This document shows, piece after piece, positions 2,705 to 41,724 of a stretch of DNA of 42,127 nucleotides. The stretch comes from Clostridia bacterium (GTDB taxonomy: Bacteria > Bacillota_A > Clostridia > Oscillospirales > CAG-272). A program made the translations under genes and the position numbers. The notes below the pieces were generated by a model. The model worked only from the letters and a program-made list of their open reading frames with translations, did no database searches and was not told the DNA's origin. The stretch covers positions 1-42,127 of the forward strand of contig JAFVXK010000028.1 of NCBI GenBank assembly GCA_017501175.1. Direction: 5' to 3'. The first letter of the stretch is position 1; each line of letters starts with the position of its first letter.

Positions 2705-2738
2705 AAACGAAAACATTTTTGAAAGAGAGAATTTTCAT

Positions 2739-5700
2739 ATGAAAACAAGCCTCAAAATAATTATCTTGGTTGTTTTGACGACGCTGTGCCTTTCGCTTCT
2801 CGCCGCGTGCGGAGGTCAGGACGTCACCCTGATTGCAAAGGGCGATGCCGCAAAGTATCTGTGTATTTACGAGGCGGGCGACGACTCGGCAAAGAGCGGA
2901 GCGCTTTTGTTTAAGGAGGAGCTGAATAAAAACGGGCTCAAGTGCGTGCCTACCGTTTTCTCTCACACGGCAGAGAACGGTGAATTTGAGATTCTTTTCG
3001 GAGAAACCGACAGAGAGGCATCGAAAATAGCCTCCGAGCTTCTTGCGAGCAAGGTCGCCGAAAATGAGGACGCATATCACTGGGCGTTTGCACATAAGAA
3101 CGGAAAGCTTGCCATAGTAGCGACCGACGTATTTGCCTACGAGCGTGCGGTGGCTGATTTCTTCGATAAATATCTCACCGATGCGGGAATAGTCGTAAAG
3201 GATACGCTTAAAGAGCACGGCTTGTTGACTTATGACGAATATGAGGATTATCTGGCTGAACAGGAAAGGCTCGCCGCTGAAGAGAAGAAGAAGGAGCACG
3301 AGCAGTATCTTGGAGAGCTGACGGCGCTTCTTGACGCTCAGCGCGAGGAGCTTAAAACGGTTACGGGCAAGTGGAATCAGTATGTAGCAGAGAGCGCCGC
3401 CAACCCCGTCGTTAAAATGTTCCAGGACTACACTGAGGATATTAAGGCGGTTGCTGATAAAAAGTGGGATTCCCCCGACAAATATCCCCAAGACGAGCAC
3501 CCGCGCCTTATGCTTACAAAGGACAGTCTTCCCTTAATAAGGAAGATGCTCCGCGAGGAAAACGAATCCAACGAGTATTTCAAGTCGCTCGTTGATGCGA
3601 CAATCCCCGATAACTGTCTTCTCCCCGACCCCGAATATCAGGGCGAAAACGACACGCTGGGTGAGCCGTTATATCACAATCATAACGAAAATTATTTGAT
3701 TATCATACAGGCAAAGGCTCTCGCTTATCTTCTTTACGGCGACGAGTATTACGGCTATCAGGCAATTCTCTATATGAAAAATTACCTGAAAACTCTTGAG
3801 ATAAAGGAAATCCCCTCCGACCAAACGAGAAGATACGGTTACGTTATGCGCGTGGCGGCGATAGTTTACGACTGGTGCTACGACCTGCTTAATGAAGAGG
3901 ATAAAATTCAGTTCATTGCCGGCGTTGAGAATTGCATCTGCCGAGGCAGAAACCTTCAAGGCGACAAAATGGAGGTCGAATTCCCGCCGTCAAAGCAGGG
4001 CATAGTCGAGGGACACGCCTGCGAGTTCCAGATTTTGCGCGACTATCTTTCCTTTGCCATAGCGGTTTACGGCGACAATTCCTCCTGGTATGAATATATA
4101 GCGGGAAGAGTTTATAACGACTACGTTCCATTCCGTGATTATTACTATTCCAACGCAGGCGTTGCACATCAGGGCACGGGATATGCCTTTGGAAGATACT
4201 CCTGCGACCTCTATTCCGCTTGGATTTTGCAGGTTGCTACCGGTGAAAATCCTTACGGTGATTCTTTGGGTAAGGCAGGCTGGGGACTTCTCAATTACGA
4301 GGTTGCTCCCGGTATCGGCTTCAACGACGGCGACAAGACCGGCGACTATAAGAATTTTGCCGAGATATATTATATGCCATACCTCAATGCGTATCTTTAT
4401 GAGGATTCGGCTATGCTTGCAATGGGCGAATACCTGATGAGTCAGAACAATCACTCCTTCGGATATTCCTACAACGAGCTCAACGTTGTTGCTTACGTGG
4501 CCTTGCGCGGTCTTTGCGAGCTTGAGGCTGGCGAAAACAGATACGAGAAAATGAACCTCATTCAGTATAACGGCTCGCCTCTCGGTCAGTACGTCGTACG
4601 CAACTCTTGGGGCGACGACAATGCGGCGGCAGTGTTTATGCGTATTAAGGAACGCTCAACCGGCGGTCACGAGCACATGGACACGGGTACGTTTGAGATA
4701 TACTACAAGGGAATGCTCACAACCGACGGCGGAGTGTACAGTAATGATAACTCCGACCATACGCAATATTTCCACGACGCAACCATCTCTCACAACGGAC
4801 TTATAATTTATAACCCCAACCTCGCCAATACCGAAAAAGGATATTATTCAGGCGGACAGAATGACCTCGGCTCTCCCGGATACACTCTGCAAACCTGGCT
4901 TAACGCTACGCATTTGGATACGGGCAAGGTGACCGGCAGACAGCATGGCTATCTTGACGATGCCGAAACGAAGCCTCTTTATGCCTACATTGCAGGAGAT
5001 ATAACCAAGGCGTACTCCACCGAAACGATAGAGTACGTCGGCAGAAGAATGCTTACCGTGTACACCGGTGACGAGGAATTCCCGATGGCGTTCTTCGTTT
5101 ACGATGACATAGCATCGAAGAGCTCTAGCTTTGAGAAGCGCTTCCTGCTTCAAATAACCTCGCCTAACGCTCCGACGGTCAGAGGAAAGACGGTAACCAC
5201 CGAGAACGGCGGCGGACGCCTCGTCCTTACCTGCCTTTCGAGCAACGTCAGCATCAATCCTGTCGGCGGAAGAGTTTATAAGAGCAACGGAAGCTACGAT
5301 TGCATCAATTCGAGCAACTATCTTCTCAACGGACAACAGCTTCTCCCATACAACAAATACGAGGATGACGGACACTGGGGCAGAGTTGAGATAGTTTCCA
5401 CTGCAAGAAGTGCCGACGTTACCTTTATGAACGTGATCTACGTTACCGATAAGGGCAACGAAAACACCGCCGAGGTCAAAAAGGTATTGAACGCAAGCGG
5501 CGTTGAGGGCGCGATATTCAACGAAAAAATCGCGGCTATCTTTGCAACCGACAGAAACGGCGCGAAATCTGCGCTTTCCTTCAAAACTACAAGTGGATAT
5601 GATCTCGATTACTACGTTTCGGGAGTTGCGGCAGGTCAGTGGAAGGTCACCGTTGGCGGAGAGGACCAGGGCACTTACACGGCAACCGAGGAGGGTGGAC

Positions 5701-5753
5701 TTCTCACCTTCACAGCATCGGGGGGAGAGGTTGTAATTTCCCCGCTTGACTAA
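2739..5753 (+). CDS. Heparinase II/III-like polysaccharide lyase lipoprotein, paralogue 2
   Basis: A 1004-residue complete copy. It starts with a lipoprotein signal (MKTSLKIIIL, hydrophobic core, lipobox LAAC, Cys about 24), so it should be anchored outside the membrane. Residues about 30-155 form an alpha/beta domain with an EILFGETDREAS segment, reminiscent of N-terminal accessory domains of alpha-glucuronidase-like enzymes (inference). A Glu/Lys-rich helix follows at about 160-200. The lyase core begins at H254-P-R. Candidate catalytic residues are H426 (GHACEF), Y482 (HQGTGYA) and H644/H646 (GGHEHMD), placed by superfamily logic. The beta-sandwich continues to a C-terminal module at about 960-1004. 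The ATG at 2739 follows a weak AAAGAGAGA ribosome binding site and is the only start that preserves the signal peptide. A hairpin follows the stop codon. Confidence 0.82.
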   Translation: MKTSLKIIILVVLTTLCLSLLAACGGQDVTLIAKGDAAKYLCIYEAGDDSAKSGALLFKEELNKNGLKCVPTVFSHTAENGEFEILFGETDREASKIASELLASKVAENEDAYHWAFAHKNGKLAIVATDVFAYERAVADFFDKYLTDAGIVVKDTLKEHGLLTYDEYEDYLAEQERLAAEEKKKEHEQYLGELTALLDAQREELKTVTGKWNQYVAESAANPVVKMFQDYTEDIKAVADKKWDSPDKYPQDEHPRLMLTKDSLPLIRKMLREENESNEYFKSLVDATIPDNCLLPDPEYQGENDTLGEPLYHNHNENYLIIIQAKALAYLLYGDEYYGYQAILYMKNYLKTLEIKEIPSDQTRRYGYVMRVAAIVYDWCYDLLNEEDKIQFIAGVENCICRGRNLQGDKMEVEFPPSKQGIVEGHACEFQILRDYLSFAIAVYGDNSSWYEYIAGRVYNDYVPFRDYYYSNAGVAHQGTGYAFGRYSCDLYSAWILQVATGENPYGDSLGKAGWGLLNYEVAPGIGFNDGDKTGDYKNFAEIYYMPYLNAYLYEDSAMLAMGEYLMSQNNHSFGYSYNELNVVAYVALRGLCELEAGENRYEKMNLIQYNGSPLGQYVVRNSWGDDNAAAVFMRIKERSTGGHEHMDTGTFEIYYKGMLTTDGGVYSNDNSDHTQYFHDATISHNGLIIYNPNLANTEKGYYSGGQNDLGSPGYTLQTWLNATHLDTGKVTGRQHGYLDDAETKPLYAYIAGDITKAYSTETIEYVGRRMLTVYTGDEEFPMAFFVYDDIASKSSSFEKRFLLQITSPNAPTVRGKTVTTENGGGRLVLTCLSSNVSINPVGGRVYKSNGSYDCINSSNYLLNGQQLLPYNKYEDDGHWGRVEIVSTARSADVTFMNVIYVTDKGNENTAEVKKVLNASGVEGAIFNEKIAAIFATDRNGAKSALSFKTTSGYDLDYYVSGVAAGQWKVTVGGEDQGTYTATEEGGLLTFTASGGEVVISPLD

Positions 5754-5769
5754 AAACGTTATTTATAAA

Positions 5770-5800
5770 AGGTGTCCTGTGGTTTACCTTCAGGACACCT
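5770..5800 (+). terminator. Hairpin after lyase paralogue 2
   Basis: Perfect 10-bp stem (AGGTGTCCTG / CAGGACACCT) with an 11-nt loop, 16 bp after the stop codon. The downstream run is not T-rich (AATCTGTTCG), so termination may be inefficient or the hairpin may protect the 3' end of the mRNA. Confidence 0.55.
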
Positions 5801-5906
5801 AATCTGTTCGTTGTAAGTAGTTATAAGCATTTTGCACAATTTAAAAGATTCTATTTGTTAATATGGACGAAAATATTTAAAACTATGTTAAATTTCGCTT
5901 TGAATA

Positions 5907-5936
5907 TTGCAAAATCCTGTTATTTTGTGCTACAAT
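5907..5936 (+). promoter_or_regulatory. Sigma-A promoter of lyase paralogue 3
   Basis: -35 TTGCAA (5907-5912) and -10 TACAAT (5931-5936) with an 18-bp spacer and an extended -10 TGC just before the -10. The 5' UTR would be about 30 nt. The -10 region resembles that of the promoter at 19258-19286. Confidence 0.7.
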
Positions 5937-5970
5937 GAAGTGAAAATATTTTGAAAGTGAGTTATTCACA

Positions 5971-8900
5971 ATGAAAAAAGGCTTCAAATCAATTATTTCG
6001 GCTTTTGCTCTTCTTTTGTGCCTTTCCTTTCTCGCTTCGTGTGGCGGGGGCAAGGATATTACGTTAATTGCTAAAGAGGACTCCGCAAAATACCTGTGCA
6101 TTTATGAAGCGGGTAATGATACGGCAAAAAACGGAGCTATGTCGTTTAAGAATGAGTTGACCGCAAACGGTTTGAAGTGTGTGTCCACTGTGTTTGGTCA
6201 TACGGCAGAAACCGGTAATTATGAAATTCTCTTCGGCAAAACCGACAGAGAAGCGTCAATTATAGCTTGGGAGCTCCTTCAAAGCAATGTATCCAATGAT
6301 GATAACGCGTTTCACTGGGTGTTCTGCTACAAAGACGGTAAGCTTGCTATAATCGCAAACGACGAGCTCGCATACGAGCCTGCAATTGACGACTTCTTTG
6401 ATAAGTATATGACCGACAAGGGCATAGTTATAAAGGACAATCTCAAAGAGCACGTCAAAATGACCTACGAGGAATACGACGAGTTCTTCAAGGAAAGCGC
6501 CGCTGATAAAAAGGCAGAGCATGCGGAGGACGCGGAAGAGCTTCTTGCTCTTTTGGAAACTCAGCGCGACTATCTTGCCGGCTTCAAGGGAACCTGGAGC
6601 AAATACGACCCTGTCAGCGCGTCCAATCCCGAGATCAACCTGTTCGGTGTTTATACAGAGGATATGGTAGCTGCCGCAGATAAAGCTTGGGGCTCGCCCG
6701 ATGCATATCCCACCAAGGATCAGCACCCCCGTCTTCTTGTTACCGAGGATAGTCTTCCTTTGATAAGAAGACAGATTAAAGAAAACAGCGCTCTTAACGA
6801 CAAGTTCAATTATTGGGTTGAAAAAGTCATTCCCAACGACTGTATTCTTCCTGAGCCCGAATATCAGGGAGAGCACGGCACGGTAGGCGGCGCTATGGAA
6901 TATAACCTTAACGAGAATTACCTCACCATTATACAGGCAAAGGCTCTGGCGTACCTTATTTACGGCGACGAGTATTACGGCTATCAGGCAATTCTCTATA
7001 TGAAGAATTATCTAATGTCGCTTGACATAAAGCAAATTCCCTCCGACCAGACGCGCAGATACGGTTATACTATGCGTGCTGCGGCTCTGGTTTACGACTG
7101 GTGCTACGACCTTCTTACCGAAACCGACAAGATTCAGCTTATTGCCGGCGTTGAGAATTGCCTTTGCCGAGGCAGGAATGCCGGAAATAAATCCAAAATG
7201 GAGGTAGGATTCCCGCCCTCGCAGCAGGGAGCTATTGAAGGACACGCTTGCGAGTTCCAGATATTGCGTGACTATCTTTCCTTCGCGGTTGCTATTTATG
7301 ATGAAAACAGTTCTTGGTATGAGTATATCGCAGGAAGAGTGTATAATCAATTCGTTCCGTTCCGCGATTACTATTATGCTGCTACGGGAGTCGTACATCA
7401 GGGAACGGGATATGCTATCGGAAGGCACTCAAGCGACCTCTATTCTGCTTGGATTTTGCAGGTTGCTACAGGGGAGAATCCGTATAGCGATGCGCTTTCT
7501 GATGCTGCTTGGGGCATATTTAACTATGAGATTTATCCGGGATATATATTTAGCGAAGGTGATGGAACCGGAGATTTTGCAGAGGCGGCAGAGGGTTACT
7601 ACGTCGCTTATCTAAATGCTTATTTGTATCAGGATTCCGATATGCTTGCTATGGCGGATTATCTTTACAGCATCAGCCCGAAGGATAATACTTTCGGAGT
7701 ATCTTACAATCAACTCAACATAGTCGCTTACATAGCTTTGCGAGGACTTGGTGATCTCGAGGCGTCGGATAACAGGTATGGCTCTATGAACCTTATTCAG
7801 TACAATGCCTCGCCTCTCGGTCAGTACGTCGTGCGTAACTCCTGGGGCGACGAGTCCGCGGCGGCTGTCTTTATGAAGATTAAGGAGCGTTCAACGGGCG
7901 GTCACGAGCATCTTGACGTAGGTACCTTTGAAATATATTACAAGGGAATGCTTACGAGTGACGGCGGTTGCTATGATAATGATAATGCTGCTCACACAAT
8001 GTATTACCACGATGCTACGATATCTCATAACGGTCTTATAATCTATAACCCCGGTCTTTCTCATACCGAGGAAGGATATTACACGGGTGGTCAGACGAGA
8101 GATTACGGACCCGGCGGATCTCTTAACGATTGGCTTGGCAACACCGATATGGACAAGGCAGAGCTGCTTGGACATCAGCACGCGTATCTTGACGATGCGG
8201 AAACGCAGCCTCTTTACGCATACATAGCAGGAGATATAACGAAGGCTTACGATTCAGAGACCGTTGATTACGTCGGAAGAAGAATGCTTACGGTATATAC
8301 GGGTGACGAGGAATTCCCGATGGTATTCTTCGTGTTTGACGATATAGCGTCTAAGAGCATTTCCTTCGAAAAGCGTTTCCTTCTTCAGATATCTTCCAAG
8401 GATGAGCCCACGGTAAGCGGAAAAACCGTAACTACCGAAAACGGTGGCGGACGTCTGGTTCTCACCTGCCTTTCGAGTAATATCAGCATCAATCCTGCCG
8501 GCGGAAGAACCTACGGTTCAACCGGAAAATACGTTTGCGCAAGCTCGAAAAACTATCTTGTGAACGGAGTACAGCTTGTTCCTTTCCATGGCGGTGGTGA
8601 CGACGGACATTGGGGAAGAATTGAGATTGTTTCTACTGCAAGGGCAACGGACGTTACCTTTATGAACGTACTCTACGTTACCGATAAAGGAAACGACGAT
8701 TCGGTTGAAATAAGAAAGGTCAGCAGCGCAAGCGGCGTTGAGGGCGCGGTGTTTAACGATAAGATTGCGGCTATCTTCGCAGCCGACAGAAACGGTGCAA
8801 CAGAGGAGCTTTCCTGCAGGGCTCTTGGAGATGACGAGCTCAGCTACTACATTTCGGGCGTTGCGGCAGGCGAGTGGAAGGTTACTGTTGACGGCAAGGA

Positions 8901-8988
8901 ATGCGGTACTTATACTGCAACCGAGGAGGGCGGACTTCTCACCTTCAGAGCTCCTTCGGGAAGCGTTGTAATTACTCCCGTGAACTAA
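5971..8988 (+). CDS. Heparinase II/III-like polysaccharide lyase lipoprotein, paralogue 3
   Basis: A 1005-residue copy with the same architecture as paralogue 2: signal peptide with lipobox LASC, accessory alpha/beta domain (EILFGKTDREAS), charged helix, lyase core beginning at HPRLLVTEDSLPLIRR, GHACEFQ, HQGTGYAIGRH, GGHEHLDVGTF (H645/H647) and the YYISGVAAGEWKV tail. It is the most diverged complete copy: the N-terminal helix is rewritten, the spacing before the core carries an extra residue (YPTKDQHPR), and IRKML is replaced by IRRQI. This suggests an older duplication or a different substrate preference. It has its own promoter (5907-5936) and a strong terminator (9004-9036), so it is probably a separate transcription unit. 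The function as an extracellular polysaccharide lyase is inferred from the superfamily. Confidence 0.82.
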   Translation: MKKGFKSIISAFALLLCLSFLASCGGGKDITLIAKEDSAKYLCIYEAGNDTAKNGAMSFKNELTANGLKCVSTVFGHTAETGNYEILFGKTDREASIIAWELLQSNVSNDDNAFHWVFCYKDGKLAIIANDELAYEPAIDDFFDKYMTDKGIVIKDNLKEHVKMTYEEYDEFFKESAADKKAEHAEDAEELLALLETQRDYLAGFKGTWSKYDPVSASNPEINLFGVYTEDMVAAADKAWGSPDAYPTKDQHPRLLVTEDSLPLIRRQIKENSALNDKFNYWVEKVIPNDCILPEPEYQGEHGTVGGAMEYNLNENYLTIIQAKALAYLIYGDEYYGYQAILYMKNYLMSLDIKQIPSDQTRRYGYTMRAAALVYDWCYDLLTETDKIQLIAGVENCLCRGRNAGNKSKMEVGFPPSQQGAIEGHACEFQILRDYLSFAVAIYDENSSWYEYIAGRVYNQFVPFRDYYYAATGVVHQGTGYAIGRHSSDLYSAWILQVATGENPYSDALSDAAWGIFNYEIYPGYIFSEGDGTGDFAEAAEGYYVAYLNAYLYQDSDMLAMADYLYSISPKDNTFGVSYNQLNIVAYIALRGLGDLEASDNRYGSMNLIQYNASPLGQYVVRNSWGDESAAAVFMKIKERSTGGHEHLDVGTFEIYYKGMLTSDGGCYDNDNAAHTMYYHDATISHNGLIIYNPGLSHTEEGYYTGGQTRDYGPGGSLNDWLGNTDMDKAELLGHQHAYLDDAETQPLYAYIAGDITKAYDSETVDYVGRRMLTVYTGDEEFPMVFFVFDDIASKSISFEKRFLLQISSKDEPTVSGKTVTTENGGGRLVLTCLSSNISINPAGGRTYGSTGKYVCASSKNYLVNGVQLVPFHGGGDDGHWGRIEIVSTARATDVTFMNVLYVTDKGNDDSVEIRKVSSASGVEGAVFNDKIAAIFAADRNGATEELSCRALGDDELSYYISGVAAGEWKVTVDGKECGTYTATEEGGLLTFRAPSGSVVITPVN

Positions 8989-30611: not shown

Positions 30612-31676
30612 TCAAATTTCGTCTGCCTTTTGGTCGCAATAAATGCAATTACCGCCCTTGTAAAGACGTTTTATTCCGCGCTCGCTCTTGCTGATGCAGT
30701 GAGGATTGTTGCAAATAAGCCTTTCGTCCTCGCACCCGTCAGTGCCGCGTCTGTCATCAACGCCCTTAGTGCCGAGAAGCATAAGAATGAGAGCCATTCG
30801 AATATATCTGCCGCACTCAGCCTGCTCAAAGTAGGCGGCTCTTGGGTCGTCGTCAACGTTGACGGCAATCTCGGTGACGCGGGGCAGGGGGTGGAGAATA
30901 CAAAGACTTTCCTTCGCCACCGAGAGCTTGTCCGCTGTCAGCTCGTAGCAGTTTTTGAGACGCTCGTACTCGTCCTTGTCGGCAAATCTTTCGGCTTGTA
31001 TTCTCGTCATATAAAGAATATCAAGCGAGGGAAGTGCTTTTTCGAGCGTATGAACCTCTCGGTATTCAGAGCCGCACGGTTCAAGCACGTCTTCCTTGAC
31101 GTAGCTTGGAAGCTTTAACTCGTCAGGAGATATAAGAACGAATTTAACGCCATTGTATCTAGCCATTGCGCTGATGAGCGAGTGCACGGTTCTGCCGTAC
31201 TTGAGGTCGCCGCAGATGCCTACTGTGAGATTGTCAAATCTTCCACATCTGCGCTTAATTGTTAAGAGGTCGGTGAGCGTCTGCGTCGGGTGATAGTGAC
31301 CGCCGTCGCCAGCGTTGATAATTGGAACGCCCGAAACGCGCGATGCAACTATGGGAGCGCCTTCCTTGGGGTGACGCATAGCTATAATGTCAGAATATCC
31401 GCTGACCATACGAATGGTGTCAGAAAGTGTTTCGCCCTTGGTTACCGATGAGCTGAGCGCCGAGGAAAATCCGAGGACGTTACCGCCAAGGCTCATCATA
31501 GCCGAGGTAAAGCTGAGGCGCGTTCTCGTTGATGGCTCAAAGAAGAGCGTGCCGAGAATTTTCCCCTTTGCCGCGTCTGCGTATTTTTCGGGGTTTTCCA
31601 TAATATCCGAGGCAACCTCGACGAGCTTGTCTATCTCCTCGGTAGAAAAATCAAGAATATCAATAAGATTTCTCAT
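30612..31676 (-). CDS. pyrB: Aspartate carbamoyltransferase with PyrI-like zinc tail
   Basis: 354 residues. The catalytic chain joins carbamoyl phosphate and aspartate, the first committed pyrimidine step: carbamoyl-phosphate loop S49-[17 protein letters not shown], and HPLPRVTEI. After about residue 305 the usual chain would end, but about 40 residues follow with C322-x4-C327 and C344-x2-C347, the exact spacing of the zinc site in the regulatory chain PyrI (C109, C114, C138, C141). The nucleotide-binding half of PyrI is not present. It is the last gene of a pyrF-pyrE-pyrB unit, 48 bp behind pyrE, with the 18-bp palindrome in that gap. AGGAG precedes the ATG. Confidence 0.94.
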
Positions 31677-33242: not shown

Positions 33243-33260
33243 TGTAAATTTTAGTTTACT
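33243..33260. repeat. 18-bp gene-end palindrome, copy D
   Basis: TGTAAATTTTAGTTTACT (one arm mismatch), overlapping the stop codon of the last Fe-S operon gene, 9 bp before the terminator hairpin. Confidence 0.65.
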
Positions 33261-34206
33261 TTTTAATTACGTCGAAGTCAGACAGCTCGAAGTGCCACTT
33301 CTCGCGCTTTCTGAAGGGCTCTTTGAAGCTCTTCTTTAAGACGCCCTTCTTTTCAAGGTGAACGTAGCAATCACGGTCACAGGCTCTTCCGCAGATGGAG
33401 CAGTTATAGGAGTGCTTTGCCGGCGGATAGAAGAAGATATTGTCGAGTATCGTTCTTGCTGTTTCGGGGGTGACCTTTGCCTCGCCTGCGATTATTTCGA
33501 GTCTGTTTTCGAGGCGGGGGAATGCATCGGGATTCATAAAGGGGTTATAAAGACCGTTTGCGCCGTTATAGTAAACCGCGCACTGCCAGTTGTCAAGCTT
33601 TCCGGTAACCTCGTCTATCGCATGACCGGGGCAGCCCTTTACACATTCCTTGCAGCCGTCGCAGAGGTGGGGAGTCATAACCTCGTCAGGCTCAATTTCA
33701 GCATCGGTGAGAATGAAGCAGTATCTTACCATAGGACCGTAGTCGTCGGTGAGAAGCGCGCCGTGGAAGCCCTTTTCGCCAACGCCGCACTTAACCGCGG
33801 AATCAACGAAGTTCATCTGATTTTCAGCGGTTCTGCCTCTGTAAATCGAGTCGTAAGCAACCTCGGGGTTGGTGTCGTTCTCCTCTGCCATGATGTTCTG
33901 GTGACGGCGCTGGGGAAGGGCAAGGAAGCCGTTTTCCTCAATGAAGTTTGCAACCTTTATCTGCGCCATAGGCATAATGGTTTCTTCCATATTTTCAACC
34001 GACATCGTGGTGTACTGATAGTAGGTCGTACCCTCCTCAATACCTCTGAACGAGCCGCGGAGAAGTCTGAACACAAGACAGATTACGGTCTTGGTTTCGG
34101 GCATAATCTTGAAGATGGGGTCGTCCTTGTCAAATCTTGACGCGGGAGCGAAGCCAACGGCGTCAGCCCAGTTTTCTTTAGCTATTTCAATAATTCTGTT
34201 TTTCAT
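33256..34206 (-). CDS. QueG/reductive-dehalogenase-like double [4Fe-4S] protein, paralogue 3
   Basis: 316 residues. The N-terminal half (IPET/KTVICLVFRLLRG, RGIEEGTTYYQYTTMS, DSAVKCGVGEKGFHGALLTD and MVRYCFILTDAEIEPDE) resembles the flavin- or cobalamin-type domain of QueG and reductive dehalogenases. It is followed by a ferredoxin motif (C-D-G-C-K-E-C-V-K-G-C-P), a W-x-C-x3-Y-x-x-G-x4-NPF signature shared with the neighbours, and a second Cys set (C-x2-C-x3-C-x3-C, NCSICGRACDRDCY). The HEAT-like C-terminal region of true QueG is absent and the second cluster lacks the usual CP. Cytosolic; it probably carries electrons or performs a reduction. Last gene of a four-gene operon; AAGGAGG before the ATG. 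Confidence 0.72.
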   Translation of the reverse strand: MKNRIIEIAKENWADAVGFAPASRFDKDDPIFKIMPETKTVICLVFRLLRGSFRGIEEGTTYYQYTTMSVENMEETIMPMAQIKVANFIEENGFLALPQRRHQNIMAEENDTNPEVAYDSIYRGRTAENQMNFVDSAVKCGVGEKGFHGALLTDDYGPMVRYCFILTDAEIEPDEVMTPHLCDGCKECVKGCPGHAIDEVTGKLDNWQCAVYYNGANGLYNPFMNPDAFPRLENRLEIIAGEAKVTPETARTILDNIFFYPPAKHSYNCSICGRACDRDCYVHLEKKGVLKKSFKEPFRKREKWHFELSDFDVIKK

Positions 34207-34218
34207 CGCTCGTCCTCC

Positions 34219-35115
34219 TTAAATCTTGCCTATTGACTTTAAGTGCTTATAGCAAGCTATGTCGCACTTCTTGCCGCAGAGGCAGGGAGCGTAGCCCCAG
34301 TGGGTTTTGGGAAGGAATTTAAGCTCGGGGTAGAGGGCTCTCGCGGATACGGCGTCAAAACGGAACTCACCGTTAAGAATAGCCTCGCGGTTGGGGTTAT
34401 CCTTGAGGAAATCGTCGGTCATGAAGGGGTTGGACTTGTGAGCGCCCTTGTAATATACCGCGCACTGCCAGGTGTCAAGACCGTCCTCGGATACCGCATT
34501 GCCGGGGCAAGCCTTAATGCACTCGCCGCACTTGTCGCAGAGGGTTTCGGTAAGCGGCTCGTCGCACTCAAGGGGTGCGTCGGTGATGATAAACGCGTAT
34601 CTCATATAAGGGCCGTGTCCCTTTGCAATAATCTTGCCGTTAAGACCGGGCTCTCCGATGCCGCAGGCAACTGCCGCCTTGCCGAAGTCTATCATAACGT
34701 CGGGCGCAGGCTTGCCGGGCTCAACGGGGTCGGACATAAGCTCGAAGGTATCGAAAACCTCGGGATTAGTGCTCTTATCGCCCTTTGCCTTCATACCGGG
34801 AACGGTTCTCTGAAGACAAGCGTCGTAGCCCTCGTTTTCGATAACAGCGCCAATCTTGAGAAGGAATATCTCGGCGAGCTCCTCGTCTATGTACTTAACG
34901 CCCTCGTTGACGTAGGTGTAGAACTGACTTCCTATCTCCATCGTGTGATAAAGAGCCTTCGGAACAGCAAAGCCAAAGCCGATTATGCACTTTGCCTCGG
35001 GGAGAATCATTCTCGGGTCCTTCTGAATATCGGGCTCGTCGTAAATCTTACCTATGCCGCAAACGGCAGCGCCGAGCTCCTTTGCTTTTTGTTTAATAAT
35101 TTCAGCGGTTAACAT
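34219..35115 (-). CDS. QueG/reductive-dehalogenase-like double [4Fe-4S] protein, paralogue 2
   Basis: 298 residues, the shortest of the three relatives. MLTAEIIKQKAKELGAAVCG opens like QueG. Further motifs: ACGIGEPGLNGKIIAKGHGP, MRYAFIITDAPLECDEP, ferredoxin motif C-D-K-C-G-E-C-I-K-A-C-P, TWQCAVYY then SNPF (shared signature), and a second set CLCGKKCDIACY (C-x-C-x3-C-x3-C). The order and spacing are the same as in the flanking paralogues. Substrate and cofactor unknown. AAGGAGG precedes the ATG at 35115, 11 bp after paralogue 1. Confidence 0.72.
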   Translation of the reverse strand: MLTAEIIKQKAKELGAAVCGIGKIYDEPDIQKDPRMILPEAKCIIGFGFAVPKALYHTMEIGSQFYTYVNEGVKYIDEELAEIFLLKIGAVIENEGYDACLQRTVPGMKAKGDKSTNPEVFDTFELMSDPVEPGKPAPDVMIDFGKAAVACGIGEPGLNGKIIAKGHGPYMRYAFIITDAPLECDEPLTETLCDKCGECIKACPGNAVSEDGLDTWQCAVYYKGAHKSNPFMTDDFLKDNPNREAILNGEFRFDAVSARALYPELKFLPKTHWGYAPCLCGKKCDIACYKHLKSIGKI

Positions 35116-35126
35116 ACTCTTCCTCC

Positions 35127-36206
35127 TTATCTGTCAAGCTTCCAAGCCTTCTTGGTACGAAGGGGAGCTTTGAATCTGTCTTCCATACAGCCGCCCTTCT
35201 TTTCAAGCATAGAAACGCAGGCACGGATACAACCGCCGCATTTAGCCATATTGTAACCAACCCAGCTGGGGAAGTATTTGGCAAGAGCGTTATAGACCTT
35301 CATAATTTCCTTCTCGTTTGCGATAGGCTGCTTGCCTTCAAGAAGGTCGAGGTCGCCGTTCTTGTTTTCGTCGAATACGCTCTTCGGAACGAAGGGATTA
35401 TAGTATCTTCCGCCGTGAGTATAGAAGGCGTAGCAGCGCCACATATCTATGTCGCCCCACTCGCAAACCTTGCCGTCAATCTCAATATGTACGGTTTTGC
35501 CCGAATTGATAGCCGGGATACAGCCGCCGGGACACTCGCGAACGCACGCACCGCACTTACGGCAAAGAGGCTCGCCGTTATACATCTCGTCGTACTCAAG
35601 CTCCGCGTCGGTGAATATGAAGGCAACTCTCTGAAGAGGTCCGAACTCGGGGGTAAGGAGCATCTTAGACCAGCCTATCTCGCCAAGACCGCAGGCAACT
35701 GCTGCAATACGGAACTGAAACTGAATATCGGGGGGAGTGCCGCCCTCGCGCGTTTCTCTTGTGAACTGAACGCTTCTGTGGTGGTTTGTAGCAACCTTTG
35801 CGTTGTTGACGACCTCAATCTGCTCCTCGGGGGAGAGCGTGTTTCCGGGAGAGCCGTCCATATCCGAAACACAGCCTCTTGCACCAGTGTTACGGTAAAC
35901 GAACGCCTCGTAGCCTTCGTCCTCGATAAGCTTTCCTACGGTGTACAGAACAGACGGAGCGAATATTTCGTTAATTCCTCCATATGCGATAGAGGGGTAC
36001 TGATAGAACTGCGTTCCTTCCTCAATACCTCTTTGAACACCTCTCGGTATTCTGAAAACGAAGCCGATGCAGCTCTTTGCCTCAGGGAAAAGGAACTGCG
36101 GGTTCATCTCCTTGGGAGCGCCGTTGAATCTGCTCATGGGCGCGATACCGCAGGCATCTGCTCCGGCAGCCAGGGCTAACTCTTTGATTTTCTGACTTGT
36201 CAGCAT
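35127..36206 (-). CDS. QueG/reductive-dehalogenase-like double [4Fe-4S] protein, paralogue 1
   Basis: 359 residues, the longest of the three. It opens MLTSQKIKELALAAGADACGIAPMSRF and has RIPRGVQRGIEEGTQFYQYP, ACGLGEIGWSKMLLTPEFGP and RVAFIFTDAELEYDE, then ferredoxin motif C-R-K-C-G-A-C-V-R-E-C-P, an insertion of about 20 residues after the cluster (INSGKTVHIEIDGKVCEWGD), MWRCYAFYTHGGRYYNPF, and CGGCIRACVSMLEKKGGC as the distal Cys set. Its ATG abuts the stop codon of the U32-like gene, so translation is probably coupled. The function is unknown; relatives reduce queuosine precursors or organohalides. Confidence 0.72.
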   Translation of the reverse strand: MLTSQKIKELALAAGADACGIAPMSRFNGAPKEMNPQFLFPEAKSCIGFVFRIPRGVQRGIEEGTQFYQYPSIAYGGINEIFAPSVLYTVGKLIEDEGYEAFVYRNTGARGCVSDMDGSPGNTLSPEEQIEVVNNAKVATNHHRSVQFTRETREGGTPPDIQFQFRIAAVACGLGEIGWSKMLLTPEFGPLQRVAFIFTDAELEYDEMYNGEPLCRKCGACVRECPGGCIPAINSGKTVHIEIDGKVCEWGDIDMWRCYAFYTHGGRYYNPFVPKSVFDENKNGDLDLLEGKQPIANEKEIMKVYNALAKYFPSWVGYNMAKCGGCIRACVSMLEKKGGCMEDRFKAPLRTKKAWKLDR

Positions 36207-37226
36207 TTATAGCTCCTCCAATTTAATAATAGCTTTTTTACAGGTTTCTATGCAATAACCGCATTCGGCGCAGCGCTTGTTACAGCTCAGAACCGTTTCG
36301 GTGTAATGCTCGTCAATACTCTGGTTTTCTATTATGGCGGGGTAGAATACTCCCGAGTGGTCGGGCTCAAGAAGAGAGGTTACCTGACCTCTGTAGCTAC
36401 CCTTCATATAAGCGTCAAGCAGGCGCGAGGGATTGGGATTGACCCGCGTTGCGAGCTTTATGCCGTCGAAGTAATCTGCAACGAGGTGAAGGTCCTCCGG
36501 CCTTATGAAGTTTGTAATGCGAAGATATTCTTCAATTCTGCCCTTTAAATACGAGTGGCAGACGCCGCCGAATTTATATGCATTGTCGTATTTTGCGATT
36601 TCGGCCTCGTGCGCGACGAGGTTGTCGTGGAAAACGTGAGCCGAGCAATAATTGAGGCAGCCGCTGTTTGCGAGCATATACAGCTCCTTGCCGTTTTTAT
36701 CACAGTAGGCGCGAAGCTCCTTAATTTTCTCAAGATTTCGGTTGTACTCGCGATTCATATAATATCCGTCGAATTTATCGGCTAGATAATCCATACCCTC
36801 GACAGTGCCGATTTCCATATTGACCGACGCGCGAGTTTTGACCCCGTCAAAGTTATCCTTTATAAATCCCGCTATAATAGGTGAGGTCGTTGTTACAGAT
36901 GCGAGTGTGAAATTGGAAGCAATATAATCCACCGTGTCGCCTATTTTCATAAACAGCGAGCGTGACAGGCTTTCCGCGCCGTAGCAGTTGGCGTTGAAGA
37001 GCAGATTGAAGCGAAGACCCTCGTCCGAGAGATATTTGAGCGCTTCAATAAGCTTTGCCTCAGCCTCCCAGGGAAAAGCGTTTTCTGTGCTTGTTTGCGC
37101 GCTTCTTCCGCCGGGGAATGAGCCCCAAGAAAAATAAACCTCGGAAATTCTATCCTTGTATTCAACGATTTTATCAATAAATCCGGGCTTTGGTTCTATT
37201 GGAAGACCAACCGTAAATTTGTTCAT
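36207..37226 (-). CDS. U32-like TIM-barrel protein with C-terminal [4Fe-4S] motif
   Basis: 339 residues. The pattern of strands (RISEVYFSWGSFPG, RFNLLFNANCYG, VKTRASVNMEIG, GKELYMLANSGCLNYC) and the LATRVNPNPSRLLDAYMKG stretch resemble the peptidase-U32 family, whose characterised members are mostly Fe-S RNA or quinone hydroxylation factors. At the C-terminus C319-x2-C322-x2-C325-x3-C329 follows C315, a ferredoxin-type motif with Lys instead of Pro. Extra Cys at SGCLNYC and GGVCHSY could hold another cluster. First gene of the Fe-S operon, divergent from the AraC gene. No signal peptide; cytosolic. The family assignment is tentative. Confidence 0.55.
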   Translation of the reverse strand: MNKFTVGLPIEPKPGFIDKIVEYKDRISEVYFSWGSFPGGRSAQTSTENAFPWEAEAKLIEALKYLSDEGLRFNLLFNANCYGAESLSRSLFMKIGDTVDYIASNFTLASVTTTSPIIAGFIKDNFDGVKTRASVNMEIGTVEGMDYLADKFDGYYMNREYNRNLEKIKELRAYCDKNGKELYMLANSGCLNYCSAHVFHDNLVAHEAEIAKYDNAYKFGGVCHSYLKGRIEEYLRITNFIRPEDLHLVADYFDGIKLATRVNPNPSRLLDAYMKGSYRGQVTSLLEPDHSGVFYPAIIENQSIDEHYTETVLSCNKRCAECGYCIETCKKAIIKLEEL

Positions 37227-37274: not shown

Positions 37275-37304
37275 TTGACATTATATCACACAATCTGTTA
37301 TAAT
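37275..37304 (+). promoter_or_regulatory. Promoter of araC-type/birA unit, overlapping a divergent promoter
   Basis: Plus strand: -35 TTGACA (37275-37280), 18-bp spacer, -10 TATAAT (37299-37304). On the minus strand TGA-TATAAT gives an extended -10 (37288-37280) for the Fe-S operon, so the plus-strand -35 and the minus-strand -10 overlap and the two promoters probably compete. Confidence 0.72.
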
Positions 37305-37365
37305 AATAGCAAAAAAGCAACCTATAATATAACAAATCAAACTTTTGAGCAAAAAAGGAGAAGCA

Positions 37366-38211
37366 ATGCTTAAGGAGCTTAATCCGCTGGTGCGCTATGC
37401 AAGGGCGTTCAAGGTAGGCCTTGCCAATACGAAAACCTGCGTTGGACGGGAGAACAGAATATTTTATATTACGTCGGGAGAGGCTACTCTTGTTATATCG
37501 GGCAAGTCTTATTCCATATCGAAAAACACGCTTGCGTATATTCCGTCATATACCGAGTATCGCTTTGAATTTAAGAGCGGCGGTGGCGACGTTTCGCTTG
37601 TTTGCCTTAATTTTGACGTTTGTGCGCGAGAGGGCTCGGACGAAACGCACAGGAAGCCGATACCCGTATCCATGTGGAACGGCGACACCTCGGATAAAGA
37701 GAGCACTTTGCCCGAATTTTCAAATCCAATAGTGCTTCAAAATGCCGATGGAGCATACAAGGATATAAACAAGCTAAACGGGATATTTTCAAGGCGTGAG
37801 GCTTATTACGCCGATTTTGCTTCGGTATATATGAAAAAAATTTTGCTGTTTACTCTGACAAGAGCCGAGGTGGACGACTCTCCCACCACAGCGTCACGAA
37901 TACTTGAGTACGTCAGGGAAAATTACCGCGAGAATATAAGAAACAGCGAGCTTGCGAAGCGCTTTGGATACCACCCGAATCACCTTAACAGAGTTGTAAA
38001 AGCATACACGGGTATGTCCTTGAAGAGCTACGTAATAGCCTGTAAGCTTTCGGCGGCGAAGGAACAGCTTGCTATGACCGACAATCATATAACAGAAATA
38101 TCCGAGAATTGTGGCTTTTCAACGCCCTCTTACTTCACCGAGCTTTTTTCTAGAAGCGAGGGAATAACGCCGCGCGAGTACAGAAATAAAATGAGGAATA
38201 TGATAGTATGA
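37366..38211 (+). CDS. AraC-family transcription regulator
   Basis: About 281 residues: an N-terminal cupin-like sensor (YITSGEATLVISGKSYSISKNTLAYIPS), then two helix-turn-helix motifs near the C-terminus (NSELAKRFGYHPNHLNRVVKAY and HITEISENCGFSTPSYFTELFSR). It binds DNA, probably at the intergenic region with the divergent Fe-S operon; the ligand is unknown. The ATG at 37366 after AAAAAAGGAG is preferred to a TTG at 37345. Its stop overlaps the birA start (ATGA). Confidence 0.92.
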   Translation: MLKELNPLVRYARAFKVGLANTKTCVGRENRIFYITSGEATLVISGKSYSISKNTLAYIPSYTEYRFEFKSGGGDVSLVCLNFDVCAREGSDETHRKPIPVSMWNGDTSDKESTLPEFSNPIVLQNADGAYKDINKLNGIFSRREAYYADFASVYMKKILLFTLTRAEVDDSPTTASRILEYVRENYRENIRNSELAKRFGYHPNHLNRVVKAYTGMSLKSYVIACKLSAAKEQLAMTDNHITEISENCGFSTPSYFTELFSRSEGITPREYRNKMRNMIV

Positions 38212-39105: not shown

Positions 39106-41724
39106 TTATTTGCTGCCGAATACTGCAAGACTGATGTCGTATATCCAGTCTATATTCCAGCCTACAGGCTCGTGATTCGTTTCGCAAAGAACGGTTCTGA
39201 CGCCTGATGCCTCGTCAAAGACGTCGCTTCCCATACTCGTTACCGAGGCGGGAATTTTAATCTCGGTGAGCGACGACGTTCCTGCGAATGCGCCGTTGCC
39301 GATAGATGCTAATCCGCTCGGCAGAGTGACGCTCACAAGCGCCGAGCAGCCCGAAAATGCATTTTCATCGAGAGCTTTTACACTCTCGGGAATAACTACC
39401 GATTTCAGCTTTGAGGCATTCTGGAACACCGCACCGCTCATATGCAAGAGCCCGTCGGGAAGCGCTACTGTTTCAACGTCGGTTTTTGAAAATACACTCG
39501 TAGATATCGTAGTTCCCGAAACGTCTGACGCTGCTATTATCTTCGTGTTCTGATGAACAGTGAAGCTTTTCAAGCTTGCGTCGTCAATAGCTATCAAAAG
39601 ATGATAGGGATTTTCCTCGTTTCCGAGGTAGATACCGCCGTCATAGCTTGTTGATGTGAGGCTCTTACAGGCAGAGAAAGCAAGTGTGCCAACAGAGGTT
39701 ACGGTTGAGGGGATAGTAAATGCCTCGAGATTTCTGCAAAGAGCAAACGCCGAAACGCCAATAGACGTGAGCGAGTCGGAATACTGAATTTCCTTTAGCG
39801 ACGTGCAGCCGAGAAAGGCGTAGTGCGGGATTTCCTTTACCGAATCAGAGAGCCTTACGCTTGTGAGCGAGGAGCACTCGGCAAACGCGCTGTGACCTAA
39901 ATGCTTTACGCTGTCGGGCAGGGAAATTTCGGTAATAGCCGATGCCGAAAACGCGCCGACGGATATACCGCAAAGCGAGCTCGGAAGCTCTACCAGGGCT
40001 ATGTCCGAGCCCGAGAAAACGTAGGATGCGATAACGTGAGTGTTTGGGTGAAGCGTTACAGCGTCCTCCACCTCGTCGCTAAGATCTATAAGGACGAGAT
40101 ATGGGTTCGACTCATTTCCGAGGTATTTGCAGTTTTCGTATTCATTATACGAGCTGATACCGGTATTCGCTATCGCGTCCATACCGAAGTCGAGAAGTGT
40201 GTCGGGAATTTCGAGCGTCATAAGTGCCGTACAGCTAGAAAAGGCGCTCTCACCAATATACAAAAGCCCGTCGTTAAGCTTTACATTCGAAAGCGCTGTA
40301 CAAGAGCCAAAGGCATTATACTCAATGCTTATCACCGTTTCGGGAACGGTAATTTCGCCAAGCGACGTGCAACCCGAAAAGGCAGAAGAGCCTATCACGG
40401 TAACGTTATTCAGGTCGATTTTGGCAAGAGAGGTGCAGGACGAGAACAGACCCTGCGGTATTTCGGTGAGTGATGTGGGAAGAGCTATCTCGGAGAGCGA
40501 GGAGCAACCCGAAAAGGCAAGCTTGCCTATTCTAAGAACACCGTCGGGAATATCACACGCCATAAGGGATTCGCAACCGGAGAATGCCGACGGACCAATC
40601 TCTACAACGGTGTCGCTCATATATACAGCGCCGAGCTTTTTGCACTTTGAAAAGGCGCTGTCCGGTATAGAGGTTACCCCCTTGCCTATTCTTACCACCT
40701 CAAGCGTTGAGCAGCCGGTGAAGGCTTGCTTGCCGAGGTAGGTAACCGAATCGGGAATTACAACCGAGTCAATGGCGTGGCACCAAGCAAATGCGGCACC
40801 GCCAATCTCCGTCAAGGTGTCGGGGAGCACGAGCTCGCCGTCAAATATCTGCGAGCAGCCGCCGAATGCACTCTCGCCTATTGATGTAAGTCCCTCGGGA
40901 AGAGTAATTTGTGAGAGATAGAAGCAACCGACGAAGGTGTTAGCCTTGATTTCGGTTATATTTTTAGGGAAATTAAAGGCTCTCAAGGAATCGCAGTTTG
41001 CAAAGGCGAATTCGCCTATTTCCTCGACGGTATCCGGAAGAAAAACAGATTCAAGGAAGGTACAGCCCGAAAATGCGGCGTATCCTACCTTTGTAATATT
41101 TCCGTAAATGGTCAGAGAAACGAGCGATGCGGCGTTCGCAAATGCCTCGTCGCTGATAATCTCGGTGCTTTCGGGAATTATCAGAGTAACAAGGAATTCA
41201 CTTCCGTAGAATGCGCGAGGAGCGATTATCTTTACTCCGTCCTCCAGCTTGAGAGCGATGCGCTCTTGGGTATCGGAATAGGAGGTTAAAACGAGATAGG
41301 GATTATTGTTGTTACCGAGGTACTTTGCACCGCTTGATACGTTATATTTAAGCTTGTCACAGCCAACGAGAGCGTTGTGCCCTATCTTTACGATACTGTC
41401 GGGGAGCTTTAGAGAGAGAAGCTCGCTGCAATCCTTGAATGCCTCATCTGCGAGGGCTACGACGGGAACTCCGTCAATCTTTGCCTGCACCTCTGCGTAT
41501 TTTATATCGGTACTTACGGCAGAGGCTACGTATCCGCCGAGTTTATCGTCGAGGGTGTATTTTACTCCGTTAAGAGAAACCTCCCGCCGTCCGACGATAA
41601 ATCCCACCGTCAGTCCAGTTGCAATAATAGCAACCGTTACCGCTATCAGAATTATCGCTTTTAAATTATTTTTTATGAAGAGAAGCAAGGGGTTTGCCTT
41701 GCTCACAGCCTTTCTTTTGCCCAT
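39106..41724 (-). CDS. BspA-type leucine-rich-repeat surface protein
   Basis: 872 residues. A basic start and one membrane helix (about 24-48, LKAIILIAVTVAIIATGLTVGFIVG) are followed by about 30 repeats of the LRR_5 (BspA/TpLRR) kind, with the pattern h-x-S-h-x-h-P-x-S-h-T-x-I-G-x-x-A-F-x-x-C. They are interrupted at about residues 133, 531 and 695 by a YLGN-x-x-NPY module (YLGNNNNPYLVL, YLGNESNPYLVL, YLGNEENPYHLL) that restarts the array. The C-terminus (VGWNIDWIYDISLAVFG) has no LPxTG anchor; it is probably held by the N-terminal helix with the repeats outside. Such proteins bind host or bacterial partners. GGAG precedes the ATG at 41724, and the gene has its own promoter. Confidence 0.88.
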   Translation of the reverse strand: MGKRKAVSKANPLLLFIKNNLKAIILIAVTVAIIATGLTVGFIVGRREVSLNGVKYTLDDKLGGYVASAVSTDIKYAEVQAKIDGVPVVALADEAFKDCSELLSLKLPDSIVKIGHNALVGCDKLKYNVSSGAKYLGNNNNPYLVLTSYSDTQERIALKLEDGVKIIAPRAFYGSEFLVTLIIPESTEIISDEAFANAASLVSLTIYGNITKVGYAAFSGCTFLESVFLPDTVEEIGEFAFANCDSLRAFNFPKNITEIKANTFVGCFYLSQITLPEGLTSIGESAFGGCSQIFDGELVLPDTLTEIGGAAFAWCHAIDSVVIPDSVTYLGKQAFTGCSTLEVVRIGKGVTSIPDSAFSKCKKLGAVYMSDTVVEIGPSAFSGCESLMACDIPDGVLRIGKLAFSGCSSLSEIALPTSLTEIPQGLFSSCTSLAKIDLNNVTVIGSSAFSGCTSLGEITVPETVISIEYNAFGSCTALSNVKLNDGLLYIGESAFSSCTALMTLEIPDTLLDFGMDAIANTGISSYNEYENCKYLGNESNPYLVLIDLSDEVEDAVTLHPNTHVIASYVFSGSDIALVELPSSLCGISVGAFSASAITEISLPDSVKHLGHSAFAECSSLTSVRLSDSVKEIPHYAFLGCTSLKEIQYSDSLTSIGVSAFALCRNLEAFTIPSTVTSVGTLAFSACKSLTSTSYDGGIYLGNEENPYHLLIAIDDASLKSFTVHQNTKIIAASDVSGTTISTSVFSKTDVETVALPDGLLHMSGAVFQNASKLKSVVIPESVKALDENAFSGCSALVSVTLPSGLASIGNGAFAGTSSLTEIKIPASVTSMGSDVFDEASGVRTVLCETNHEPVGWNIDWIYDISLAVFGSK

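Follow-up and report, generated by a model that had tools for sequence, protein, structure and literature searches.

Contig JAFVXK010000028.1 of a Clostridia bacterium (assembly GCA_017501175.1), analysed here over its whole stretch of 42,127 nt (hereafter the window), carries a four-gene operon that raises a simple question: what would three related iron-sulfur proteins and a barrel protein do together? The genes, which we label g1 to g4, encode a U32-like (beta/alpha)8 barrel protein (g1) and three proteins resembling reductive dehalogenases (RDHs) and the epoxyqueuosine reductase QueG (g2, g3, and g4). An original prediction, made from the sequence alone, had called the set a four-gene Fe-S operon with a divergent AraC regulator. 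The answer we favour, at close to an even chance, is that the operon encodes a cytoplasmic reductase system, controlled by AraC and probably dependent on a cobamide, that serves the catabolism of glycosides or sugars.

Four intact, closely packed minus-strand open reading frames (ORFs) bore out the predicted operon (Table 1). The intergenic gaps for g1/g2, g2/g3, and g3/g4 were 0, 11, and 12 bases, and GGAGG-type sites, read from the sequence, preceded g2, g3, and g4. Our scan of species-representative genomes with g2 returned 180 relatives, and we examined the best 80. All 80 loci came from metagenome-assembled genomes, many of them from the gut of sheep, goats, deer, cattle, and buffalo according to the record titles. 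The order g1-g2-g3-g4 was kept in 74/74 loci holding all four genes, which makes the arrangement more than chance, and the contigs of the three loci missing g3 and/or g4 (L022, L056, and L075) all ended there. In a set of 291 class genomes, 17 carried g2 (E ≤ 1e-60), and each of these was also among the 20 that carried g1 (E ≤ 1e-40; Fisher p 8e-25, a statistic that ignores relatedness). Sixteen of the 17 g2 genomes had a close g1, and the g1 match of G020 was of a sister type. The three extra g1 genomes comprised G016, in which an araC-g1-g2 run was cut by the contig end, and G061 and G115, which held sister units. A divergent araC relative adjoined the operon in 65/75 testable loci, and the regulator foreseen in the window was confirmed by its helix-turn-helix match (Table 1). 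The original prediction had been staked on the four genes co-occurring elsewhere and on the lack of close characterised homologues, and it survived on both counts: the set is conserved across Clostridia, and searches of Pfam, NCBIfam, and the PDB found no such homologue for any of the four proteins. In Pfam, g1 had zero matches above any cut-off, and g2-g4 had just 4Fe-4S family fragments, of which only PF00037 in g3 passed its cut-off.

The paralogues g2-g4 belong to the RDH/QueG superfamily, as predicted, with NCBIfam matches that were significant though under the curated cut-offs. The RDH model TIGR02486 (cut-off 160.35 bits) scored 38.7 bits for g2 (E 1e-9), 46.0 for g3 (E 6.3e-12), and 41.1 for g4 (E 1.9e-10). 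The QueG model TIGR00276 (cut-off 200) gave 28.0 bits for g2 (E 1e-6), 45.3 for g3 (E 5.5e-12), and 35.3 for g4 (E 6e-9). DUF1730 (PF08331) was not among the matches at E ≤ 1, a search in which the HMMER filters drop weak matches. RDHs were among the top sequence and fold matches in solved structures, and a 44-row profile found tetrachloroethene RDH first (E 8.8e-20). The fold modelled for g2 was a nitroreductase-type B12 module fused to a ferredoxin part. Across the 15 relatives picked for one alignment (A1), g2 was highly conserved (81-92% identity). No N-terminal twin-arginine (Tat) leader like that of respiratory RDHs was found in g2-g4 by reading, and catabolic RDHs lack this leader too.

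In a 51-row tree made by a quick method, with some open forks and two long branches, g2, g3, and g4 each formed one clade (SH-aLRT support 99-100). The other architectures described below grouped with them, and a starred branch (96) set all of these apart from the RDHs and QueGs. Nearest to g2-g4 was a group of L170-L174 and L104 (support 84-90, not starred), which the tree names U32pair although the contig of L104 shows no U32-like gene. The three conserved paralogues stem from ancient duplication, in keeping with subunits, which the original prediction had offered beside possible successive reductions. All three kept full cluster motifs, which speaks against decay of the duplicates and for three subunits that are active or carry cofactors.

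Residues were counted across the window and the 80 loci after removal of truncated or short sequences (n = 234; g2 81, g3 78, and g4 75). All eight cluster Cys, aligned with RDH and QueG, were invariant (234/234), giving the ferredoxin pattern of two [4Fe-4S] clusters, which is a sequence pattern and not a metal content. The W-x-C and NPF motifs noted earlier were conserved as well (W256 233/234, N270 234/234, P271 231/234, and F272 228/234). The distal Cys set of g2 (C258, C323, C326, and C330) had been called unusual; in the alignment these are the ordinary second-cluster Cys of RDH and QueG, spread apart by an insert of ~50 residues.

At the column of the RDH catalytic Tyr, g2-g4 instead had Glu (81/81 in g2, 76/78 in g3 with Asp in the other two, and 75/75 in g4). 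This assignment comes from sequence, because the column was set by alignment alone and QueG was out of register by one. At the column of PceA Arg305 and NpRdhA Lys488, Arg was invariant (234/234). RDHs are described as having a conserved Y-K/R dyad (PMC10463259), in contrast with the E-R pair of g2-g4. The QueG DYH site read I-N-E, I-D-E, and M-E-E in g2, g3, and g4 of the window, with no DYH. A motif R-G-x-E-E-G-[TS] marked g2 and g4 along with the RDH-like a, RDH-like b, and U32-paired sister proteins; it was degenerate in g3 and lost in the fusions, and none of the RDHs (five) or QueGs (two) in the alignment had it. Thus g3 retained the eight Cys, Glu, and Arg, and g4 retained these and the EEG[TS] motif. 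Variation at the Glu column occurred outside the operon set: among five sisters beside a U32-like gene, L170, L172, and L173 had the exact Y-R pair and the other two had Gln and Glu, and a second g2-type copy in L105 had Gln.

Genes adjoining the operon in relatives pointed to carbohydrates, a setting that the original prediction had not anticipated, just as it had not anticipated the Glu-Arg site or the simpler sister units. A small cupin gene was found in 31/80 loci, 28 of them between g2 and g3. A DUF5696 protein was present in 21/80, directly after g4 in 16, and a Gfo/Idh/MocA protein in 20/80, always within three genes after g4; the next commonest neighbour cluster reached eight loci. All five DUF5696 members tested matched the family at E 8.7e-43 or better and three also matched GH101; for one, the nearest solved relative was an alpha-N-acetylgalactosaminidase, which we take to be family GH129. 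The nearest solved relative of the L054 Gfo/Idh protein was DgpA. A few loci held GH116, GH43, GH20, or C5-epimerase/GH127-like proteins, or an aldose epimerase with a solute-binding protein. We considered and rejected DUF5696 and Gfo/Idh as alternative partners: none of the 80 loci held both (p 0.0008 if independent), a value that does not hold because the split follows the g2-g4 tree. In that tree of 76 loci, one lineage (25 loci) had all 20 Gfo/Idh loci and the other (51 loci) had all 21 DUF5696 loci, and DUF5696 required 14 gains or losses and Gfo/Idh five. A radical SAM/SPASM protein also lay in or beside a few operons (L105:4887-8788, L054:7057-7983, and L008:4966-5952). Those of L054 and L105 resembled the tungsten-oxidoreductase maturase family TIGR04317 (238 and 250.5 bits vs a cut-off of 380), and that of L105 lay with a paralogous g2-g3-g4 set.

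We propose that g2, g3, and g4 may be three specialised copies of one Class III-type (B12/[4Fe-4S]) enzyme, each combining a nitroreductase-type B12 module with two [4Fe-4S] clusters. In each, the two clusters would relay low-potential electrons to the cobalt of a corrinoid, and a substrate bound near the Glu-Arg pair, which would replace the Tyr-Arg/Lys dyad of RDHs, would undergo reductive cleavage of a C-O or similar bond. As the usual partner, g1 would probably handle the substrate or carry out an adjoining oxidation/hydration-type step. A complex of g2-g4 is only hinted at by analogy with natural two-domain fusions in L107, L178, and L179, and g1 may associate with it. The presence of a glycoside or sugar would lead AraC to activate the operon. 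In relatives, neighbouring enzymes would process the sugar part: one lineage has a GH129/GH101-like DUF5696 glycosidase for this, and the other has a DgpA-like sugar dehydrogenase that mostly comes with a cupin.

The role of g1 is where this proposal meets its strongest rival. The U32 TIM-barrel fold of g1 upheld the barrel named in the original prediction; by sequence any kinship would be distant, with no PF01136 match at E ≤ 1 and a probability of 74.6% in comparison of hidden Markov models (hhalign). A g1-like sister in the genome of L170 reached 19.4 bits against the PF01136 cut-off of 22.4. The Fe-S motif attributed to g1 needs qualifying: its C-terminal CX3CX2CX2C motif proved optional (41/45 relatives), and C81, C190, C194, and C223 were invariant (45/45). 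In the rival reading, catalysis would fall to g1 as a U32-type hydroxylase or dehydroxylase that works without oxygen, and g2-g4 would be no more than its electron-transfer chain. The constant company of g1 or a sister with g2 (17/17 genomes), the sister units, and the four invariant Cys would suit this role, and characterised U32 oxidases require Fe-S clusters, probably more than one (PMC11574389). The cluster motif of those oxidases, CX6CX15CX3C (same source), is however missing from g1, which has C190-X3-C194-X28-C223 plus C81. A plain electron carrier would also not need the B12-type fold modelled for g2 or the RDH-type Arg of all three paralogues, and RDH-like a/b pairs occurred without a U32-like gene in the stretches seen (L106 and L175-L177). 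We consider catalysis by g1 unlikely.

Several observations weigh against a cobamide-dependent sugar reductase. The Tyr of PceA (Tyr246) and QueG (Tyr101) that lies above the corrin appears by alignment to be absent from g2-g4; this Tyr is named as proton donor (PMC5500849 and PMC4646009), and every Class III enzyme characterised so far is reported to have kept it (PMC4646009). Foldseek TM-scores were only ~0.4. No cobalamin riboswitch or other Rfam match was found in the window and six loci, a result that is neutral as a test of the cofactor. CobS occurred in just 2/23 operon genomes, so cobamide supply would be mostly by uptake, and the presence of B12-binding proteins in 22/23 is uninformative because the class at large has them in 262/291. 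The partnership with g1 also had exceptions, as g1 was not adjacent to g2 in 3/80 loci (L025, L037, and L067): the genome of L025 held g1, and the 4 kb seen there contained no g2; g1 was not found in that of L037. In the genome of L067 (stretch L196:3-2511), g1 was next to araC and to an extra, more diverged g2-type gene (62% identical over the visible part), arranged divergently and apart from the main g2-g3-g4 set. For the sugar link, the two-lineage split means that the neighbour association is conserved within two lineages and does not represent many independent events. Neither DUF5696 nor Gfo/Idh was present in 39/80 loci, some on contigs ending near g4, and of 20 neighbours tested nine had no Pfam match at E ≤ 1e-5 and three fell in families outside sugar catabolism (leucine-rich repeat (LRR), AAA/DUF4143, and glycosyltransferase). 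The window's own operon has no carbohydrate neighbours and is followed by pyrimidine genes, so the link to sugars rests on relatives. A reading that dispenses with cobamide, in which the RDH-like proteins would hold a flavin or an empty old corrin site and the clusters would do the chemistry, strikes us as improbable.

That the operon truly dehalogenates organohalides from plants or the diet is very improbable. RDHs are among the best sequence and fold matches in solved structures, and 53/59 RDH genes of non-human metagenomes came from the rumen according to PMC6048469. Against this, g2-g4 have no Tat leader, reach 38.7-46 bits with the RDH model against a cut-off of 160, have Glu in place of Tyr and carbohydrate neighbours in relatives, and are separated from RDHs in the tree. 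We can all but dismiss extra QueG-type epoxyqueuosine reductases for tRNA, since shared superfamily membership (E down to 5.5e-12) is set against QueG-model scores of 28-45 bits vs 200, the absence of DYH, an Arg without counterpart in QueG, apparent AraC control, sugar neighbours, and a separate QueG-model match in 8/23 operon genomes (E ≤ 1.5e-46, under cut-off). Those separate matches lay in ORFs of just 264-272 residues (L108-L115), and some ran across a stop codon, making them possibly a minimal QueG, a broken QueG, or another family. They also qualify the earlier remark that g2-g4 lack the HEAT-like end of QueG: the absence stands, but it is not diagnostic alone given these short ORFs.

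Relatives of the operon came in other architectures. L170-L174 had a single RDH-like gene adjoining a g1-like U32 gene, with two copies in L172, one of them with a cupin, and the U32 gene first in L173. The L171 unit sat amid GH28, DUF4432, amidohydrolase, arabinose-isomerase-like, FGGY kinase, and SIS genes. RDH-like a/b pairs occurred in L106, L175, L176, and L177, and fusions of two RDH-like domains (767-783 residues) in L107:5273-7582, L178:6133-8436, and L179:6337-8688. The second fusion domain had no RDH Arg in both cases tested (L107 and L178). An AraC-type gene lay near the fusions of L107 and L179, by similarity or reading. In one locus (L172:4894-12891), the unit of RDH-like, U32-like, and cupin genes was followed within a few genes by metF- and metH-like genes, identified by reading, which would be noteworthy if the chemistry involves methyl transfer. 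The L106 pair (L106:6840-12494) lay directly 5' of genes read as EtfB-, EtfA-, and flavin adenine dinucleotide-linked dehydrogenase-like, possibly an electron source or a separate operon. Together with the tree, these arrangements suggest a history in which one RDH-like enzyme with a U32 partner was triplicated later.

Compared with the RDHs PceA (4UQU) and NpRdhA (4RAS), g2-g4 thus differ in their Glu, the insert of ~50 residues between cluster motifs, the missing Tat leader, and the R-G-x-E-E-G-[TS] motif of g2 and g4, and the operon differs in its three paralogues, U32-like partner, and the carbohydrate setting in relatives. QueG (5D6S and 5D08) has the HEAT-type C-terminal domain and DYH that g2-g4 lack and no Arg at their conserved position; no tRNA gene lay beside the operon in the window or six loci. 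From the U32 family (Mk0906, 5D88; the RlhA/TrhP/UbiU-V oxidases), g1 is set apart by the lack of a PF01136 match at E ≤ 1, its Cys spacing, and its linkage to RDH-like genes. The nearest likeness in context is to gut C-glycoside and 3-keto-glycoside pathways (DgpA and Gfo/Idh/MocA), given the Gfo/Idh gene after g4 in 20/80 loci, although the window has none. We know of no RDH-like or U32-like proteins in those pathways. Neither the operon nor DUF5696 was described in the literature searched (open-licence PMC papers only). The superfamily is known; the clade, Glu-Arg site, U32 partner, and setting are, as far as we found, undescribed.

PMC4646009 gives dehalogenation and tRNA maturation as the only known Class III roles, states that further families may exist, and reports no known cobalamin-binding motif for detecting further B12/[4Fe-4S] families. 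The operon family is a concrete, conserved candidate for such a family, and its active site and gene partners are open to testing. Should sugars prove to be its substrates, reductive B12-type chemistry would enter plant-carbohydrate breakdown in the herbivore gut. The family is also a caution that surveys of the gut and rumen may count RDH-like genes whose products do not dehalogenate. A broader proposal is possible, though doubtful: a third Class III cobamide branch in herbivore-gut Clostridia, in which three paralogous Glu-Arg subunits and a U32-type barrel would remove an oxygen substituent, by reductive deoxygenation or by O-demethylation, from a sugar, cyclitol, or glycoside that comes from plants and is taken up by the cell. 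The sister units (RDH-like with U32-like, RDH-like pairs, and fusions) would then apply the same chemistry to other substrates, and some 'reductive dehalogenases' of rumen metagenomes would be such sugar reductases.

Table 1 Features of the window and their positions.
Feature	Position	Strand	Description
g1	37226-36207	-	339 aa, intact ORF; U32-like (beta/alpha)8 barrel protein
g2	36206-35127	-	359 aa, intact ORF; RDH/QueG-like protein A
g2 codon 80 (Glu)	35967-35969	-	aligned with RDH catalytic Tyr column (PceA Tyr246/NpRdhA Tyr426)
g2 codon 193 (Arg)	35628-35630	-	aligned with PceA Arg305/NpRdhA Lys488
g3	35115-34219	-	298 aa, intact ORF; RDH/QueG-like protein B
g4	34206-33256	-	316 aa, intact ORF; RDH/QueG-like protein C
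Hairpin 3' of g4	33233-33202	-	10-bp perfect stem, 12-base loop, then TTTT
AraC-family regulator	37345-38211	+	HTH_18 E 3.7e-21; divergent from operon
Sigma-70-type promoter-like site	37275-37304	+	TTGACA-18-TATAAT with TG; 12/12 consensus bases; points at AraC gene
Heparinase II/III-type proteins	17-8985	+	
Aspartate carbamoyltransferase-like ORF	30612-31676	-	
BspA-type protein	39109-41724	-	

The likely start codon of the AraC gene is the ATG at 37366, and the N-terminal half of its protein had a weak Cupin_2 match (21.7 bits vs a cut-off of 27.2). The hairpin behind g4 folded at -19.3 kcal/mol (z -5.5), with 0/200 shuffles equally stable, and is probably the operon terminator; the terminator-scan list did not contain it because its 12-base loop exceeds the scan's loop limit of 8. 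Downstream lie the pyrimidine genes pyrF, pyrE, and pyrB, identified by reading the ORFs with no family search. The aspartate carbamoyltransferase-like ORF ends in a C-terminal CX4C...CX2C zinc-ribbon-like tail, read from the sequence, which presumably resembles the end of the PyrI regulatory subunit and is too short for the PyrI allosteric domain. At one end of the window, three tandem proteins of ~900-1000 residues with heparinase II/III-type domains, two passing the Pfam cut-off and one missing it, are probably polysaccharide lyase-like. On the far side of the AraC gene lies an 872-residue BspA-type leucine-rich repeat protein (LRR_5 E 1.8e-156).

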